Source: Daejeonella sp.
Lineage (GTDB): Bacteria; Bacteroidota; Bacteroidia; Sphingobacteriales; Sphingobacteriaceae
NCBI RefSeq assembly: GCF_030695525.1
Contig: NZ_JAUYSS010000047.1
Span: forward strand, 207,898 to 271,897
Reading direction: 5' to 3'
Length of the DNA stretch: 64,000 bases
How positions within the stretch are numbered: the stretch's first letter is position 1; each line of letters opens with the position of its first letter. Below, piece by piece: positions 11,042 to 56,387 of the stretch. The notes beneath the pieces are model-generated. The model was given only the letters and a program-made list of their open reading frames with translations, searched no databases and was not told the DNA's origin. The translations under genes and the position numbers were made by a program.

Positions 11042-12414
11042 TTTTTCCTGTCTTTTTTGTGAACAGAGTCAAATTTGACACTTTTCTTCCTTCGGGCAGC
11101 ACCGGGTTTGTTATTTCTAACTTTTGCTGTAGGTTCTCCCTTTACTGATTTTACCCCTTTCGAATTTTTAGCCTTTTTCTCATGGAAGGCTCCTTTAAAT
11201 TCGGGATCATCCCTTCGTTTTTGCAGATCAATTTCCCGGGCAATATTCTGACGTTCTTCATATGGTGTATCATCAATGAATACATTTTCGGGCATTTCAG
11301 ATATAGGAATGGTCTGCCGGATCAGTTTTTCAATCTTTTCGACGTAATATTCCTCCGAAGGGCTGCAAAAAGTGATCGCATCGCCCGTTTGAAGAGCACG
11401 ACCGGTACGTCCGATCCGGTGAACATAATCTTCAATGATAATCGGAACATCAAAATTGATGACATGGCTCACATTACTGACATCCAGTCCGCGGGAAGCC
11501 ACATCAGTTGCAACCAGAATCCTGATTTCACCTTCCTTAAAGGCATTGATCGAATTAATCCGGGTGTTTTGTCCCTTATTGGCATGGATAACCCTAACCT
11601 GGTCAACTCCATATCGCCGTTCTAGGAAATGAAAAATATTATCTGCTACCGTTTTTGTTTTACAGAAAACAATAAGACGGGTAAAGTCCTCTGTATCCTT
11701 GAGCAAATGCTGAAGCAGGTTTAGCTTGGTTTTCAGATTTGGAACTTTGTACAAAACCTGGCTTACAGTTGCTGCAGGAGTCGCCTGCTCTGCTACTTCA
11801 ATCACCGTGGGATGTTTCAGAAAATCACCCGAGATCTTATGGACTAATTCACTCATAGTAGCCGAAAACAGCAGGTTCTGACGTTTTCTTGGCACCACTT
11901 CCAGAATACGGTGTATGGAACCAATAAATCCCATGTCCATCATTTTATCGGCTTCATCCATCACCAGAAATTTCAAATTTTGGGTGTTGATGTTTCCTTC
12001 CAGATATAAATCCAGAAATCGGCCCGGGGTTGATATGATAATATCCACTCCCTTTTTCAATTCAGAGATCTGGGTTTTAGGACCTAATCCCCCATAAAGC
12101 ACAACAGTCCGCAGATCAGTATATTTAGCAAATGTTTTCACATTTTCTTCGATCTGCATTGCCAGTTCACGGGTAGGGGCGATAATCAAAGCCCTGGGAT
12201 CATTTCCCTGAGCATATTTCAACTTCATCAGAATTGGCAATACAAAAGCAGCGGTTTTACCGGTTCCGGTTTGTGCGATCCCCATAATATCCTGTCCGGA
12301 TAAGATAGGCATGATCGCTTTTTCCTGTATTGGTGTTGGCAGTGTGTAACCTGCATCCGCAACAGCATTCAGTATTTGCCTGTTCAGCTTGAAATCTTCG
12401 AAGGATAATGACAT
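11038..12414 (-). CDS. DEAD-box RNA helicase
   Basis: AQTGTGKTAAF, PTRELAMQ, STPGRFLDL, DEAD, SATM, HRIGRTGRA; basic C-terminus. Confidence 0.96.
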   Translation of the reverse strand: MSLSFEDFKLNRQILNAVADAGYTLPTPIQEKAIMPILSGQDIMGIAQTGTGKTAAFVLPILMKLKYAQGNDPRALIIAPTRELAMQIEENVKTFAKYTDLRTVVLYGGLGPKTQISELKKGVDIIISTPGRFLDLYLEGNINTQNLKFLVMDEADKMMDMGFIGSIHRILEVVPRKRQNLLFSATMSELVHKISGDFLKHPTVIEVAEQATPAATVSQVLYKVPNLKTKLNLLQHLLKDTEDFTRLIVFCKTKTVADNIFHFLERRYGVDQVRVIHANKGQNTRINSINAFKEGEIRILVATDVASRGLDVSNVSHVINFDVPIIIEDYVHRIGRTGRALQTGDAITFCSPSEEYYVEKIEKLIRQTIPISEMPENVFIDDTPYEERQNIAREIDLQKRRDDPEFKGAFHEKKAKNSKGVKSVKGEPTAKVRNNKPGAARRKKSVKFDSVHKKDRKK

Positions 12415-12663
12415 TCTGCAAAGGTAGGGATTTGGAATTTAGATTAGGACTTACAGTGTATAGTTGTCCGTTGTCAGTTGCCTGATGTCTGAAAATACTG
12501 CCAATTTCACATCAATGATGCATGTCCTTAATCCTTGTTCCTTATTCTTTGCTCCATTAATATATTAATTCTAAAATTCAATATTTATTTATCCAAATGC
12601 TGACAAACAACTAAAGAAAATTATTCCGAAATTCGCATATGCTTCTAATCTAAACCTCATATA

Positions 12664-13998
12664 ATGTCCTCAATAATCATCAAATCTGCTACAATTGTTA
12701 ACGAAGGCCGGACATTTATTGGCGATGTTTTCATTAAAGACGGGCTCATTGAACAGATCGGGTCAAGCCTGAATTTGGCAGCGGATAAGGTAATCAATGC
12801 CGAAGGTTTGCACCTTTTCCCGGGATGTATTGATGATCAGGTTCATTTCAGGGAGCCAGGATTAACCCATAAAGCCGATATTTTTACTGAGAGCAGGGCG
12901 GCAATAGCCGGCGGGATAACCTCCTTCATGGAGATGCCCAATACGGTGCCCAATACCCTGACACAACAATTGCTTGAAGATAAATATCAAATCGCAGCGA
13001 AAACCTCCGCAGGTAATTATTCTTTCTTTATGGGAGCAGGGAATGATAACCTTGATGAAGTGTTAAAAACAGATCCCAAAAATGTCTGTGGAATCAAAGT
13101 TTTTATGGGGTCTTCAACAGGTAATATGTTGGTGGATAATGAAAAGACTTTGGATGGGATCTTTAGCCGGACACCCATGCTGGTCGCAACTCATTGTGAA
13201 GATGAGGCTACCATCCGGGCAAATGCAGAGCGTTTCAAACTTCAATATGGAGATAATTTAACACCCGAAATGCATCCGCTGATCCGAAATGCTGAAGCTT
13301 GTTTTATTTCAAGCTCTTTAGCTGTCGGACTTGCAAAAAAGTACAATACCCGTTTGCATATTCTACACATTTCTACCGCAATAGAGACTTCTCTTTTTGA
13401 TAATTCGATTCCTCTCGAAAAAAAGAGGATTACCTCTGAAGCCTGTATTCATCACTTGTGGTTTTCAGATGCCGATTATGCTAAAAAAGGAAATTGGATC
13501 AAATGGAACCCGGCTATAAAAACTGCTGCCGACCGGGATGAAATATTTAAAGCGGTATTGGATGATCGGATTGATGTTATAGCCACAGATCATGCACCGC
13601 ATACCATTGAAGAAAAATCACAGCCTTATTCCACAGCACCATCCGGCGGACCATTAGTGCAGCATGCATTGGTAGCCATGCTGGAATTTTACAAGCAGGG
13701 TAAAATTTCTCTGGAGAAAATTGTTGAAAAAATGGCTCATAGTCCGGCAATCTGTTTTCAGGTTGAGAATCGCGGATTTATCCGTGAAGGCTATTGGGCC
13801 GATCTGGTATTAGTTGATCTCAATAAGCGATCAACTGTGAGCAGAGCAAATGTGCTTTCTAAATGTGGCTGGAGCCCATTCGAGGGACAAACATTTGCTT
13901 CTACAGTTATAAGTACTATAATATCCGGGAACCTGGTGTACGATAACGGCAAAATATTTGATGGGGTGTATGGAAAAAGGTTGGTGTTTAACCGATAA
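12664..13998 (+). CDS. pyrC: Dihydroorotase
   Basis: FPGCIDDQVHFREPG, EMPNTVPNT, IATDHAPHT. Confidence 0.9.
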   Translation: MSSIIIKSATIVNEGRTFIGDVFIKDGLIEQIGSSLNLAADKVINAEGLHLFPGCIDDQVHFREPGLTHKADIFTESRAAIAGGITSFMEMPNTVPNTLTQQLLEDKYQIAAKTSAGNYSFFMGAGNDNLDEVLKTDPKNVCGIKVFMGSSTGNMLVDNEKTLDGIFSRTPMLVATHCEDEATIRANAERFKLQYGDNLTPEMHPLIRNAEACFISSSLAVGLAKKYNTRLHILHISTAIETSLFDNSIPLEKKRITSEACIHHLWFSDADYAKKGNWIKWNPAIKTAADRDEIFKAVLDDRIDVIATDHAPHTIEEKSQPYSTAPSGGPLVQHALVAMLEFYKQGKISLEKIVEKMAHSPAICFQVENRGFIREGYWADLVLVDLNKRSTVSRANVLSKCGWSPFEGQTFASTVISTIISGNLVYDNGKIFDGVYGKRLVFNR

Positions 13999-18387: not shown

Positions 18388-18471
18388 AAAAATTACCAAC
18401 AGCCGGAAGATACCTCCTCCGGCAAGGTTTATTTTACTGGCAGCTGTTTTTCATAGGGACTGGAAGCCCGA
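18388..18471 (-). repeat. Dispersed structured repeat, copy A (5' half only)
   Basis: - strand: CCTATGAAAAACAGCTGCCAGTAAAATAAACCTTGCCGGAGGAGGTATCTTCCGGCTGTTGGTAATTT; matches copies at 24281 and 50717. Confidence 0.85.
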
Positions 18472-18572
18472 CAAAAGGATAATATGCAATTTGATGTATA
18501 CCCCGGTGGCCAATTTAAACTATGCTCAAGAAATTTTATGTAATTGGAGACACCACACGTACGTATTTTGTC

Positions 18573-24153: not shown

Positions 24154-24280
24154 ATAGCAATTGTGTTTAGCTACATTGACTACATAACGTGAGTCCGATT
24201 TAAAATTTAACATAAATATTCGCTTAAGACAAAAGCTATAGCTGCAACCCGGGTTAATTTCAAATGGCAGGTGATCCTTC

Positions 24281-24362
24281 GGAGCTACCCGTCACAATGA
24301 AAAACAGCTCCAGGTAAAATAAACCTTGCCGCAGGAGGTAGCTTACGGCTATTTGTAATTTC
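24281..24362 (+). repeat. Dispersed structured repeat, copy B, 5' half
   Basis: ACAATGAAAAACAGCTCCAGGTAAAATAAACCTTGCCGCAGGAGGTAGCTTACGGCTATTTGTAATTT. Confidence 0.85.
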
Positions 24363-24367
24363 CCTGT

Positions 24368-24427
24368 GGTTGGTGTTATCACCGACCACTTGATATAATC
24401 GTGCTTGGTACGGTGAGAACACCGACC
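24368..24427. repeat. Pair of REP-like hairpins inside repeat copy B
   Basis: GGTTGGTG-TTAT-CACCGACC and GGTaCGGTG-AGAA-CACCGACC. Confidence 0.7.
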
Positions 24428-24470
24428 AGAGGGTAATATAACAGGATTAATTGCCGGAACTGCCACCGGA

Positions 24471-24546
24471 GGAAAGGGCTGAATTAACCGATATTACGCA
24501 GGCATTGCTTTCCAAAATCAAATTATTTTGGCTCCAGAGCCCTATC
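24471..24546 (+). repeat. Dispersed structured repeat, copy B, 3' half
   Basis: GGAAAGGGCTGAATTAACC...GCAGGCATTGCTTTCCAAAATCAAATTATTTTGGCTCCAGAGCCCTATC; homologous to 50835..50910. Confidence 0.85.
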
Positions 24547-24589
24547 GGAATAATTATAAGCCTCTCCTTTAACCTTCCTTATATCTAGG

Positions 24590-26371
24590 TTAAATAAATA
24601 CAGGCCGATCCAGTTTTATCGCAATGCGGTAAGCAGCATTCATCAAACCCACATGGCTATAGGCCTGAGGGAAATTCCCCCACTGGCTGCCGCTTTCTTC
24701 ATCCACATCCTCACTAAATAACAAAAGGTGGTTTGAATATTGCAAAAGGTTTTCAAATTCCCGGATCGCATCATCAAGGCGGCCAACACAGGCCAGAGCT
24801 TCGACATACCAGAAAGCACAAATCAGGAAAGTGGATTTTGGTTTGCCAAAATCATCAGAATGTAAATATCTGTGAAATAGACCTTTTTCTGTTTTTAATT
24901 CTTTCTCAAGCATGCTGAGATGATCTTTTGCACGGTCAGAAGCCGGGTCAAGGTAATTCATCATAATGAGCTGAAGGGTGCTTGCATCAAGATGTGGACT
25001 GCCTACAGCATGGGTATAAACCTTGCGAACGGGGTCATAACAATTCTCAATGTGGACAGCAGCTCTGTTTTTCAGGGAAATTGCCTTCTCTACCAGTTCA
25101 ATATCACCGATTGCACGTGCCATTTTTTCAGCAGCAGAGCAGCCTGCCCATTGAAATAGATTACTGTAACAATGGGTATTGGCAATATTTCTGAATTCCC
25201 AGATACCGGCATCCTTCTCATCAATGGTGAGTTCAACTTTCGAAAGCAAATAGCTTATCCAGTGGGCAGAATCTTTTCTCTCTGAAATTACAAAACGATG
25301 GTCGGTATATAAGGGCAACAAAGAAATAAGAACTTGTCCGTAAATGTCATTTTGAATATGTTCAAATGCCTGATTGCCAATACGTACAGGTTTGTTTCCC
25401 AAATACCCATCCAGATGTTCCAGTATAGTCTCTGTCAGAAACTTTTCCCCGGTTATCCCGTATAATGGTTGATAGCGCCCTTTTTCTGAAAACGAAAGGT
25501 CAGAAACATAGCTAAAATAGCGCTCCATTTCTTCAAAATGCCCGATATGACTTAAGGCACTTATCACATAAAATGTGTCTCTTAACCAGCAATACCGATA
25601 ATCCCAGTTGCGACCGCTGCCCGGAAATTCAGACAGACTGGTAGTGCTTGCAGCAATGATTGCTCCCGTATCTTCATATTGGTGAATCTTAAGTGCCAGT
25701 GCTGATCTGATTACGTTTTTTTGATAGAAAATGGCAATGGAAGAGTGCTTTATCCAAAGTCTCCAATAATTGATCGTTTCGAGAAGAAAGCGTTCTGCTG
25801 TACTAGCCAGAGGGGCTTCAAGTGGTTCCCCATAGGTAAAAACTAAGTATTTTGTTTCGCTCAATACCGAAGACTGCTCATCAATGATATAATTAATGGG
25901 AATATTTGTGGTTAAGCGTATTTTTTCTTCCGAACCATTATATTCAATATGGCTGCTGCCGCGTGAAGCTTTTAATGTCTTGATCCCATAGTTGTAAACA
26001 GGCTTACATTTAACTTTTATGCGTGGTGTACCGCTAATTAATTCGATTTTCCTGATCAGCATTAAAGGTTTAAAATATCTATCAAACTGATTAAATCTTG
26101 GGGCAAAGTCGGTTATCCTGTAAACCCCTTCAGCTGATGTAATTTCGGTGCAAAGCACATTGGTATTCTCCAGATAATATTGATGCGATTCATACTCTCC
26201 TGATGGTAAAATCGAAAATTCACCTCCTTTATCTTTATCTAAAAGTCCGCCAAAAACAAAGGAGCTATCAAATCTTGGCCAGCATAACCAATCTATGTTC
26301 GTGTTCTTGTTAATGTGTGCCATAAAAGCACAATTCCCTATTATACCGGTTTGATATGTATGTTTCTGCAT
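24590..26371 (-). CDS. Glycoside hydrolase family 15 protein (glucoamylase/trehalase-like)
   Basis: IGNCAFMAHINKNTNIDWLCWPRFDS, GSGRNWDYRYCWLRDTFY, FLICAFWYVEALA, SGSQWGNFPQAYSHVGLMNAA. Confidence 0.92.
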   Translation of the reverse strand: MQKHTYQTGIIGNCAFMAHINKNTNIDWLCWPRFDSSFVFGGLLDKDKGGEFSILPSGEYESHQYYLENTNVLCTEITSAEGVYRITDFAPRFNQFDRYFKPLMLIRKIELISGTPRIKVKCKPVYNYGIKTLKASRGSSHIEYNGSEEKIRLTTNIPINYIIDEQSSVLSETKYLVFTYGEPLEAPLASTAERFLLETINYWRLWIKHSSIAIFYQKNVIRSALALKIHQYEDTGAIIAASTTSLSEFPGSGRNWDYRYCWLRDTFYVISALSHIGHFEEMERYFSYVSDLSFSEKGRYQPLYGITGEKFLTETILEHLDGYLGNKPVRIGNQAFEHIQNDIYGQVLISLLPLYTDHRFVISERKDSAHWISYLLSKVELTIDEKDAGIWEFRNIANTHCYSNLFQWAGCSAAEKMARAIGDIELVEKAISLKNRAAVHIENCYDPVRKVYTHAVGSPHLDASTLQLIMMNYLDPASDRAKDHLSMLEKELKTEKGLFHRYLHSDDFGKPKSTFLICAFWYVEALACVGRLDDAIREFENLLQYSNHLLLFSEDVDEESGSQWGNFPQAYSHVGLMNAAYRIAIKLDRPVFI

Positions 26372-36139: not shown

Positions 36140-36241
36140 GAAGCAGGAAGCCGGAAGTCTGATGTCAGAAGTATGAAGTCTGATGTCCGAACTCTGACCT
36201 CCGACCTCATACCTCGGACTTCATACCTCAATTCTACCCCC

Positions 36242-36772
36242 ATGTTCTTAGAAAAACTAAAGCATATTAAAGCATTTATTCTTGATGTTGATGGTGTCAT
36301 GACCAATGGTATGCTGCTGGTTACTGAGTCGGGAGAGTTTTTAAGGCAGTTTAATATCAAAGATGGTTATGCCCTTCAACTGGCCATTAAACGGGGGTTT
36401 AAGATAGCAATTGTTTCAGGTGCAAGATCAAAAGGGGTAGAGCATCGCTTAAGAGGACTTGGTATTACGGATATTTATCTCGGTTTGGAATCTAAAACCG
36501 GAGCTTATAATGAGTTTATTCAGAAGAATGGATTATTGCCAGAGCAAGTGCTCTTTATGGGGGATGATATTCCCGATCTGGAGCTAATGAAAATGGCGGG
36601 TCTTGCGGTTTGTCCGGCTGATGCAGTTGAGGAAATTAAAGTTCTTGCCCACTATATTTCCCCAAAAAATGGCGGTGATTCATGCGTGAGGGATATCGTT
36701 GAAAAAGTAATGAAGATCCAGAACCTCTGGACTAGTGCAGATCCGTCTGCTGCTGATGGGAGCAAAATCTGA
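36242..36772 (+). CDS. kdsC: KdsC-like HAD phosphatase (3-deoxy-D-manno-octulosonate 8-phosphate phosphatase)
   Basis: AFILDVDGVMTNGMLLV, VSGARSKGVEHRLRGLGI, FMGDDIPDLELM; start corrected, upstream extension is low-complexity repeat. Confidence 0.9.
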   Translation: MFLEKLKHIKAFILDVDGVMTNGMLLVTESGEFLRQFNIKDGYALQLAIKRGFKIAIVSGARSKGVEHRLRGLGITDIYLGLESKTGAYNEFIQKNGLLPEQVLFMGDDIPDLELMKMAGLAVCPADAVEEIKVLAHYISPKNGGDSCVRDIVEKVMKIQNLWTSADPSAADGSKI

Positions 36773-36834: not shown

Positions 36835-37200
36835 ATGAAAAGATTAATTATTGTCATGGGATTGATTCTCTTTATGACATCCTTCGCCAATGCACAGGGC
36901 GGCCGACAAATGGGTACACCTGAGGAAAGAGCTGATCGTCAGCTTGCCCAGTTGGAATCGCTAAAGCTTTCAGCCGAGCAAAAAACTAAATTAAAGGACG
37001 TGTTTATCTGGTCGGCAAAGCGTACTGACAGTGTCAGAACAACTTTAACTGATGGGGGTGATTTTCAGGCCATGCGTGCTAAAATGGCACCTCTGCAGGC
37101 TGAAACCACAACAAAAGTGAATGCTTTACTTAATGATGAACAAAAGAAAGCCTATGAGGCCATTCTTGAAGAGCGTCGTGCAAGAATGCGGAATAACTAA
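36835..37200 (+). CDS. Secreted Spy/CpxP-like or DUF4890-like small protein
   Basis: Signal peptide; LESLKLSAEQKTKLKDVF...LLNDEQKKAYEAILEERRARMR. Confidence 0.65.
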   Translation: MKRLIIVMGLILFMTSFANAQGGRQMGTPEERADRQLAQLESLKLSAEQKTKLKDVFIWSAKRTDSVRTTLTDGGDFQAMRAKMAPLQAETTTKVNALLNDEQKKAYEAILEERRARMRNN

Positions 37201-37202
37201 TA

Positions 37203-37407
37203 TAACGTGAATTCAATATTAAACAATCTAAAGATTAATATTTAACCACATAGATTGACTTTTATAATGCATTAAAGGAAACATAGATTGTAAATCATAT
37301 AGATTGAAGCGAAGCTTCAAGGCTATCTGTGTCTAAAATGTAAGTTAGAAGCTGTAAAATGCTATGTTTCTATGTGGTTTTTAAAATGTTATGTCGAATT
37401 CACGTTA
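37203..37407. repeat. ~205-bp element bounded by 12-bp inverted repeats with nested inverted repeats (MITE/long-hairpin-like)
   Basis: TAACGTGAATTC...GAATTCACGTTA ends; AACCACATAG...CTATGTGGTT inner arms; central TTGAAGC-gaa-GCTTCAA. Confidence 0.85.
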
Positions 37408-37470
37408 ATATACCCATTTTGATTGAATAGTGGATAGACCAGGTTTTAATTGTACTGTCTGATGTTTTTA

Positions 37471-50574: not shown

Positions 50575-50701
50575 GCGCAATGTCATTAAGTTAAGGATTA
50601 CGATCCTGACGAAAGTCAGGATCGTAATCCATTATTAAAAAAACGCATTGTCATTCTGGCGAAAGCCAGAACCTTCTGCCCATTAAATAATGGCATTGCG
50701 C
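50575..50701. repeat. REP-like cluster: outer inverted repeat enclosing two GAAA-capped hairpins
   Basis: GCGCAATGTCATTA / TAATGGCATTGCGC arms; GGATTACGATCCTGAC-GAAA-GTCAGGATCGTAATCC (50595..50630); TTCTGGC-GAAA-GCCAGAA (50654..50671). Confidence 0.88.
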
Positions 50702-50716
50702 ACGCCTGAAGCAGCG

Positions 50717-50801
50717 TCGGGCTGCCCTTCCCAATGAAAAGCAGCTCTGGGTAAAATAAACCTTGCCGGAGGAGGTAGCTTCCGGCTATAGGTAATTTGA
50801 T
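50717..50801 (+). repeat. Dispersed structured repeat, copy C, 5' half
   Basis: GTCGGGCTGCCCTTCCCAATGAAAAGCAGCTCTGGGTAAAATAAACCTTGCCGGAGGAGGTAGCTTCCGGCTATAGGTAATTT. Confidence 0.87.
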
Positions 50802-50834
50802 GTAGAACGCGAATTCTTGACTGATAACCCCGTA

Positions 50835-50910
50835 GGAAAGGACTGAACTAACCTATAGCATGCAGGTATTGCTTTCCAAAATCAAATTATTTCGGATCCA
50901 GAACCTTATC
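50835..50910 (+). repeat. Dispersed structured repeat, copy C, 3' half
   Basis: GGAAAGGACTGAACTAACC...GCAGGTATTGCTTTCCAAAATCAAATTATTTCGGATCCAGAACCTTATC. Confidence 0.87.
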
Positions 50911-50960
50911 TTACCAATTATAGCGGTATTATTTTAGCCTTCATTATACCGGAACTCAGG

Positions 50961-53048
50961 TTATAAGGTATATTTAACTCCTCCAAAGAAATTGCGTTTA
51001 GCTGCTGCATTGAAAAAGCGGCCCCCAAATGCATTTGTATCATTCCCAAGGCTATAAGTTTCATTCAGCAGATTGTCTACCCCTGCATAAAAATCCAGAA
51101 CAGGTTTGCCGGGTTTGGAACTTCTCCAACCTGCTTTGAAATGCACCAGGTCAAAACTTCCTGCGTATACGCTGTTTGCATCATTCAAAGGAATTTTTGA
51201 AGTATAATTGTGCTGTGCAAAGAGGTAAAAATTCTTTTGAAAGCGAAAATCCAGACCGCTGACTATCACACTCCTGGGTGTACCGGTTAAACGGTTTCCT
51301 GAAAAATCACTGGTTCTAATCTGGTAATCTCTGAAAAAGTATTTACTGAGTGTAAAACTGTTTTGCAGCTGAAGTCCGCTTAAAAAACCTTTTGAACCCG
51401 GTTCGATAAGCCAATAGCTAGCCTGGGTCTCCACACCTGTTTGTCGGGTACCACCGGCATTCAAATAAAACTCCGTATCATCTGCGTTTACACGACGAAC
51501 AATTGCATTCTCAAGACGATACTGAAAAATGGAGGCATCCATCCATAGACGGTCATTGCTGTTACGTAAACGGAAACCTGCTTCATAGTTCCATCCAGTT
51601 TCAGAATCCAGAGTGGTATTGATTATATTGTCTGAAGCTCTAACCTCGGCAATTGTTGGAGGTGAATAACCTCTGCTAATAGTTGATCGAAGAGCCAGTA
51701 AATCTGAAAGCTGATAAGATAGTGCAAATCGTGGCATTAGTTCCGGATCAAAATTGCGTTCAAATCTGCTTGCATATGATCTGATATCTTTTGAAAACTT
51801 ATATCTGTAATAATTTAAGCTGGCTGCAACTTCTGCGGTAAGCTTATCGCCGATATTTGCAGAAAAACGTGTGAAATAGAAAAATTGACGCGAAAGTATA
51901 TCGTCCTGGGCCTGCAGACTACCCTGTACTCCACTGTTATTATTGTAATTGGCTATATCAGCACTGGTACCCTGCAATTCAAGTCCTGCATTCCATTTCC
52001 AGTTTACTGTTTTGTCTTCATTCCCGGATAATTCGAGGTAGGTTCTTATTCCACCAGTATATTCTTTACGGATCTCATAATTGGTAATGAATGGATTCAG
52101 ATAATCGGTTTTTGAACCAAAGACTGCAAAAACATGTCTTAAATTATCGGTTATCTTTGCATCATTTACTATTCCTGCATATAAAGTATTGTTTTCAATC
52201 CTTGCTTTTTGTGCAACAGGTCCTGCGACGAATGCGGTCGATGGTCTGGCTGCCTGTGGATTGGCAGTGTATTGTGCTAATGTTAAACCTCCGGGAGTTT
52301 TGTATTCCAGATCAGAGTAGAAAGCAAGTACACGAAGCTGATTCTCCTCTGCATAATTCATACGATACATCAGTTGTGCATAATGACGGCTCATGGCACT
52401 ATGTTCGCGGTAGCCATCTGATCTCTGATAAGAATGATTAATATTCAGGTACTGGTTTTTGAATTTTTTCTGAACAGCCAGTTTCTCATGAAATAAACCA
52501 TATGATCCGCTGCTGATACCTGCAGATGCCCAGCTACTGTCGGCATTATTATCCACAGGGTTTATCAAAACAACTCCGCCGGAGTTTGCTCCGAATAAAC
52601 TGCCATCCGGACCTTTTAAAACTTCGATATTATGGATGCTATTCACATCAATCAGATTCAGATAGGTATTTCCTCCCGCATCTGTCAAAGGGAGTTCATC
52701 CAGATAAATTTTTACGTTTCTTACCCCGAAAGGTGATCTGAGAGAGCTTCCCCGAATAGAGAGCCGATAACTTCCCGGTGATCTTTCTTCCATTCGGATG
52801 CCCGGGACTGTATTAAGCGCGGGCACCATTGAAATGCCGGGTTGGTCTCTTAATTGTTTATTACTGATTAAACTTACAGATGATGGAACTTTTAAAATGG
52901 GTTGTTCTGATAAGTAAGCCCTGATCACAATCTCGTTTACTTTCTGAACCGAATCTACTTTGCTTTGGGCAAAGCTCACATTCACTAATAATGTAAAAAT
53001 CAGGATGAATTTTATTCCTCTTAAACTAAAATATCTGCTTATTTCCAT
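50961..53048 (-). CDS. TonB-dependent outer membrane receptor
   Basis: Signal peptide; plug PGISMVPALNTVPGIRMEERSPGSYRLSIRGSSLRSPFGVRNVKIYLDELPLTDAGGNTYLNLID; terminal KRNFFGGVKYTL beta signal. Confidence 0.93.
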   Translation of the reverse strand: MEISRYFSLRGIKFILIFTLLVNVSFAQSKVDSVQKVNEIVIRAYLSEQPILKVPSSVSLISNKQLRDQPGISMVPALNTVPGIRMEERSPGSYRLSIRGSSLRSPFGVRNVKIYLDELPLTDAGGNTYLNLIDVNSIHNIEVLKGPDGSLFGANSGGVVLINPVDNNADSSWASAGISSGSYGLFHEKLAVQKKFKNQYLNINHSYQRSDGYREHSAMSRHYAQLMYRMNYAEENQLRVLAFYSDLEYKTPGGLTLAQYTANPQAARPSTAFVAGPVAQKARIENNTLYAGIVNDAKITDNLRHVFAVFGSKTDYLNPFITNYEIRKEYTGGIRTYLELSGNEDKTVNWKWNAGLELQGTSADIANYNNNSGVQGSLQAQDDILSRQFFYFTRFSANIGDKLTAEVAASLNYYRYKFSKDIRSYASRFERNFDPELMPRFALSYQLSDLLALRSTISRGYSPPTIAEVRASDNIINTTLDSETGWNYEAGFRLRNSNDRLWMDASIFQYRLENAIVRRVNADDTEFYLNAGGTRQTGVETQASYWLIEPGSKGFLSGLQLQNSFTLSKYFFRDYQIRTSDFSGNRLTGTPRSVIVSGLDFRFQKNFYLFAQHNYTSKIPLNDANSVYAGSFDLVHFKAGWRSSKPGKPVLDFYAGVDNLLNETYSLGNDTNAFGGRFFNAAAKRNFFGGVKYTL

Positions 53049-56183: not shown

Positions 56184-56387
56184 TGTGTTCAAAGTTAATT
56201 ATTTACATTTAGTATCAAGTATCAAGAGCCAAGAATCAAGACTGGATTAAGCTTCATTTGGTATTTTTTTTAAGAACACAGAGATGAAGTATTCTTTATT
56301 TTAGCATCCTATTATCAGACCTCATACCTCATACCTCATACCTCATACCTCAGCCCTCATACCTCAGCCCTCATTCATCAAAACCTC

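Follow-up and report, generated by a model that had tools for sequence, protein, structure and literature searches.

Insertion sequences of the IS982 family have ends that begin with AC and direct repeats of 2-10 bp (PMC7335449). The family includes two autonomous elements of ~1 kb from the phylum Bacteroidota, IS1187 of Bacteroides fragilis and IS195 of Porphyromonas gingivalis, for which direct repeats of 7 bp and 8 bp, respectively, were described (PMC7335449). MITEs derived from IS982 elements appear to be little reported, with one clear precedent in the literature searched: MITECca01 of Cardinium, which is ~240 bp long, carries the inverted repeats of its parental IS982-family element ISCca4, reaches a high copy number mainly in intergenic regions and shares its genome with the parental IS (PMC9769881). 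Two further bacterial MITEs are relevant for comparison. QMITE2 of Coxiella burnetii (150-190 bp) has an internal hairpin, a GTAG REP inside and direct repeats of 7-11 nt, serves as a target of IS1111, and its copies, mostly in 3′ untranslated and intergenic regions, are linked and conserved between strains (PMC5896051). BrickBuilt of P. gingivalis is an intergenic MITE with ends matching ISPg1/ISPg9, a 23-nt minisatellite inside and an interior unrelated to a transposase (PMC4596501).

The repeat analyzed in this study occurs in a 64,000-nucleotide stretch of a Daejeonella genome (the window) and is very probably a new IS982-type MITE. It has AC ends, direct repeats in the range of 7-8 bp and the phylum in common with IS1187 and IS195 but, unlike these, lacks a transposase, so that only the ends are alike. 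With MITECca01 it shares the inverted repeats of an IS982-family parent, the high copy number and the mainly intergenic location; in contrast to it, the MITE described here is ~453 nt long, has an unrelated interior, is not accompanied by a parental IS found in its own genome and exhibits insertions common to several species. QMITE2 resembles it in being a MITE with an internal hairpin and direct repeats, in its location and in the conservation of copies between genomes, but differs in length, in its REP content and in being targeted by IS1111; this likeness is one of features, and no sequence relation is claimed. BrickBuilt is likewise an intergenic Bacteroidota MITE with an interior unrelated to a transposase, but differs in its ends and its minisatellite.

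Copies in the window and the complete element

A sequence-only reading of the window had described a structured intergenic repeat of three copies, here called A, B and C, built around a core of ~70 nt. Three related intergenic copies indeed sit in the regions starting at 50716, 24187 and 18390 (minus strand), and three occurrences of the 22-nt hairpin motif were found at ≤3 mismatches, where 0.00 are expected by chance. The features are as follows.

50716..50961, plus strand: copy C (right end also put at 50963), model positions 214-459, nhmmer 9.5e-66
50753..50760, plus strand: AAAATAAA block of copy C, adjoining the hairpin; in-situ divergence 4.2% between orthologous copies
50761..50786, plus strand: hairpin arm 1 of copy C, CCTTGCCGGAGGAGGTAGCTTCCGGC, containing the hairpin of the sequence-only reading
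50819..50841, plus strand: hairpin arm 2 of copy C, decayed (GACTGATAACCCCGTAGGAAAGG)
50942..50961, plus strand: right terminal inverted repeat of copy C (..TTATACCGGAACTCAGGT)
24187..24592, plus strand: copy B, near full-length, degenerate
24362..24433, no strand assigned: 72-nt palindromic insert (CCCTGTGGTTGGTGTTATCACCGACC...AGAGGG) nested in copy B
18390..18540, minus strand: copy A, internal fragment with both ends lost, model positions 143-296, nhmmer 3.2e-32

Copies B and C are decayed members and copy A is a fragment of the MITE. Copy C corresponds to the right 54% of the element (model position 214 to the right end); its left end is lost, with other repeats in its place. These lie in the adjoining window positions 50586-50720, which contain a near-perfect palindrome, GGATTACGATCCTGAC-GAAA-GTCAGGATCGTAATCC, along with repeats of the GTCATTCTGGCGAAAGCCAGAACC and GCGCACGC type, and similar sequences flank other copies of the MITE. 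The left inverted repeat of copy B is located at 24187-24203. A second block common to copies B and C, which had also been proposed, is present at 24466-24558 and 50830-50922 with 83% identity. Several other copies carry the 72-nt palindromic insert of copy B at the identical position within the element, and it also occurs next to further copies; it is either a further small mobile repeat or a subfamily marker.

The ~70-nt core proved to be a small part of the real unit. Full-length copies conform to a consensus of ~453 nt with terminal inverted repeats (ACGTGAGTTCGATATAA) of 17-20 nt, which begin with AC. The consensus, built from 22 full-length copies (458 columns including a TA on each side), has the perfect ends TAACGTGAGTTCGATATAA...TTATATCGAACTCAGGTTA, and many copies span TAACGTGAGTTCGATATAAAAT to TTATATCGAACTCAGGTTA when oriented copies are aligned with their flanks and compared with empty sites. 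Whereas the typical element measures 453 nt, shorter derivatives of 267-316 nt exist as well.

Nearly every copy is flanked by TA on both sides, and these dinucleotides belong to a 7-bp target duplication with a TAANTTA-like consensus. Among 35 distinct full-length copies, the two flanking 7-mers had a mean identity of 0.686 compared to 0.604 in shuffled pairings (0 of 2000 shuffles as high), and five pairs were exact where 1.3 were expected (p 0.0055). For duplication lengths of 2-5 and 8-10 there was no such excess, and for length 6 it was weaker. A recognisable target duplication is absent from copies B and C. Insertion is also documented by empty orthologous sites: the site of copy C is occupied in the genomes G007, G010, G011 and G017 but empty in G009, G019 and others, that of copy B is empty in G009 (L137), among others, and further empty sites were found for L090 (compared with L187) and for L257.

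Transposases with the same ends

The element is short and has no transposase gene. That the copies lack a transposase had already been read from the sequence and is borne out by the best tblastn match of an IS982 protein against the element, which reached an E-value of 0.26. When viral contigs were searched for the inverted repeat, however, two candidate partners emerged: L274 has two such repeats at a distance of 1.07 kb with a gene of 300 aa between them, and in L276 one repeat lies beside a gene of 287 aa. Both genes encode IS982-family transposases (NF033520, 246 and 256 bits; Pfam PF13612). Within the same genus, G004 and G007 contain intact IS982 copies with near-identical ends, G004 has a second, degenerate IS982 copy of which the first 22 nt are identical to the MITE, and G011 carries an IS982 fragment. 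Of the MITE ends, 19-22 nt are identical to the ends of L274, L276 and L280, while 13-19 nt are shared with L277 and L278. No homology between the MITE interior and IS982 was detected beyond the ends.

The ends, the 7-bp duplications, the empty sites, the lack of a transposase and the intact IS982 elements whose ends are essentially the same together make the assignment to a new IS982-type MITE very probable; of the three options that the sequence-only reading had left open, the non-autonomous element was the right one. The MITE would have been moved by an IS982 transposase acting in trans. As the own genome did not yield any IS982 transposase match at E ≤ 1e-5, either the MITE is not currently mobile there or the IS is hidden in a gap of the assembly.

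Two other transposon classes were weighed against this assignment. The TA dinucleotides flanking nearly all copies would suit a MITE of the IS630/Tc1-mariner type with a TA duplication. This origin is refuted by the absence of DDE_3 from 19 of the 20 genus genomes, the own genome included, by a duplication which is 7 bp long and itself starts and ends with TA, and by the transposase with these ends being IS982, and its probability is accordingly negligible. A short GC-rich hairpin located between genes and close to their 3′ ends is, on the other hand, reminiscent of REP-like repeats moved by a Y1 transposase (RAYT or IS200/IS605-type). REP/PATE-type elements are without paired inverted ends or target duplications. 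The element described here possesses both and the transposase with its ends is the DDE-type IS982, which renders a REP-like nature extremely improbable.

Related and nested elements

A different MITE with similar ends is present in the same window.

37205..37405, no strand assigned: 201-nt MITE with ends ACGTGAATTC.../...GAATTCACGT and a perfect 7-bp duplication

Its duplication, TAATATA, occupies 37198-37204 and 37406-37412, and relatives of ~204 nt recur in G000 and G009. Further MITEs of 183-219 nt were observed at L252:2175-2393, L237:3026-3208 and L240:3269-3451, one of them in another genus of the family. As these three have the same ends and unrelated interiors, several MITE families seem to have this IS982-type end in common.

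Two loci were considered as autonomous copies and rejected. L183 contains a 465-aa transposase, IS4-like by sequence appearance, with CTACTGTTTGGACAC ends (12033-13430), which is inserted in the related 204-nt MITE. In L093 (3334-5242, minus strand) a two-gene insert with the ends TTAGTGGCT.../...AGCCACTAA lies inside a MITE copy and encodes proteins of 391 aa and 163 aa. The larger protein looks ImmA/IrrE-like, judging by its HELHH motif, and the insert looks like a small mobile gene pair. Apart from MITEs, the window has two intergenic places, 36165-36244 and 56294-56380, where a 7-nt unit resembling ACCTCAT/ACCTCCG is repeated in tandem.

Copy number and distribution

The repeat was originally taken to have three copies. 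Its own genome contains many more, contrary to the refuting outcome named in the sequence-only reading (no further copies), with at least 45 BLAST places corresponding to ~40 loci after joining of split matches (221-nt query around copy C, 40 of the 69 candidates scored). Copies are present in 11 of the 20 Daejeonella genomes, namely the own genome and 10 others, and almost none were found in other genera. All 75 exact core matches in GTDB species genomes (MAGs and genomes) belong to Daejeonella, Sphingobacterium-labelled, other Sphingobacteriaceae or Bacteroidota entries. The plasmid collection searched gave no matches, and the core motif was not found in the viral contigs. The spread of the MITE dates back to an ancestor of several Daejeonella species, with many insertions inherited at orthologous places.

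The internal hairpin

RNAalifold applied to 63 copies predicted a long internal hairpin with the arms CCTTGCCGGAGGAGGTAKCTTCCGGC and GCCGGAAMTACTCCGGAGGAAAGG, a loop of ~32 nt and an adjoining AAAATAAA block. Over 19 named pairs, 98.2% of the cells are paired. The short GCCGGA/TCCGGC hairpin, on which the sequence-only reading was centered, is present but is merely one arm of this longer structure. It had furthermore been regarded as conserved in all three copies, whereas the local hairpin of copy B is impaired (GCCGCA...TTACGGC) and the second arm of copy C is decayed. Fold strength is high in several copies (z -3.6 and -4.1) and unremarkable in copy C (z -1.3). With its decayed arm 2 and unremarkable fold, copy C, the locus singled out by the sequence-only reading, is therefore a weak example of the conserved form.

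Covariation, which had been suggested as a check, was found with a score above all 500 shuffles and every slide. Most of the signal comes from one pair, K/M (U-A in 33, G-C in 25), for which 24 changes over three states were inferred on the tree of copies compared to 49 in shuffles. At three loci both sides of this pair differ between orthologues, and L222, which is among these loci, shows another compensated pair as well. Compensatory changes could also arise without selection, by template switching in a quasi-palindrome.

These properties would also be expected of a structured non-coding RNA family (sRNA or riboregulator) which spread as a repeat and for which the transposon ends are incidental. 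The covariation beyond shuffles, the strong folds of several copies and the in-situ conservation regardless of gene context (see below) fit such a family, and sRNAs do arise from MITEs of Coxiella (PMC5896051). On the other side, Rfam searches at curated and permissive thresholds returned nothing credible that would explain the repeat, a promoter search in the element gave nothing above chance, and ends and target duplications fully fit a transposon. An RNA family of this kind thus appears unlikely, and the IS982-type MITE is retained as the identity of the element.

Constraint after insertion

In 21 orthologous insertion groups with both flanks homologous, the hairpin arms diverged by 5.1%, compared to 18% for the loop and right interior and 12% for the flanks (Wilcoxon p 3e-6). 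The AAAATAAA block next to arm 1 diverged just as slowly (4.2%), whatever the gene context, and arm 2 agrees with the slow divergence of the arms. Hence, at fixed loci the hairpin decays more slowly than its surroundings. Since the arms are closer in orthologues (0.05) than in paralogues (~0.10), gene conversion was set aside as a cause.

A rival explanation is that all copies are simply dead MITEs, in which the arms are conserved because mobility before insertion required them, through the transposase or host factors, and in which the apparent in-situ signal stems from the way copies were collected. Most copies were indeed found with queries containing the arms, and the arms are also the most conserved part among paralogous copies. 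Yet, when only the nine groups without any copy selected by the core motif are considered, the arms still diverged by 6.6% compared to 16.2% (p 0.006), and the orthologue-paralogue difference, arm 2 and the AAAATAAA block agree with constraint instead. We regard dead copies as a credible explanation, though one that falls somewhat short of convincing.

Gene context and candidate function

Of the 113 distinct insertions, 52 are situated in convergent, 44 in tandem and 17 in divergent intergenic spaces; those in tandem spaces split into 24 and 20 according to orientation. The convergent share of 46% exceeds the 16% (51 of 316) among the intergenic spaces of G009 (Fisher 1e-9), which agrees with the 3′-end location proposed for the window copies. 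Part of this excess will be due to promoter avoidance and the TAA-rich target. That all three copies lie 3′ of genes was correct, but for copy A incomplete, as it is situated 3′ of a 201-aa gene and also ~60 bp upstream of a 103-aa gene. The right ends of copies B and C both run into the stop codon of a convergently oriented gene; the one of copy B reaches the stop codon of gene 24590-26371 (minus strand), and the right-end junction of copy C supplies the TAA stop codon of gene 50961-53048 (minus strand). In relatives that lack copy C, the two genes are separated by an inverted repeat, probably a bidirectional terminator, which is missing from carriers of copy C.

On the minus strand the long GC-rich hairpin is directly followed by UUUAUUUU, a layout typical of an intrinsic terminator or an RNA 3′-end stabiliser. 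This layout is present in consensus and folds, although a terminator pattern scan made no call on the element. By inserting, the MITE would bring a ready-made hairpin to gene 3′ ends, where hairpin and minus-strand U-rich tract would work as a predicted terminator or stabiliser. The tandem copies do not exhibit an orientation bias (24 versus 20), and convergent and tandem copies are under similar constraint, which argues against a pure minus-strand terminator. As the hairpin is conserved in situ, it is plausible that some copies may act as a 3′ UTR element or non-coding RNA.

We tentatively suggest that the hairpin may persist owing to a role at the 3′ ends of the genes next to it. The wider idea of a genome-wide domestication of the MITE, with the hairpin serving as terminator, RNA 3′-end stabiliser or small RNA at dozens of 3′ ends under purifying selection with compensatory changes, is conceivable and to be held with more doubt.

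In itself, the element is a further bacterial MITE of a known kind, which provides shared insertion markers across Daejeonella species, and its interest rests on the possible domestication. The conservation of the hairpin at orthologous insertions offers a rare chance to test MITE domestication in bacteria and, if the idea is true, this would be a case of genome-wide domestication of a bacterial MITE.
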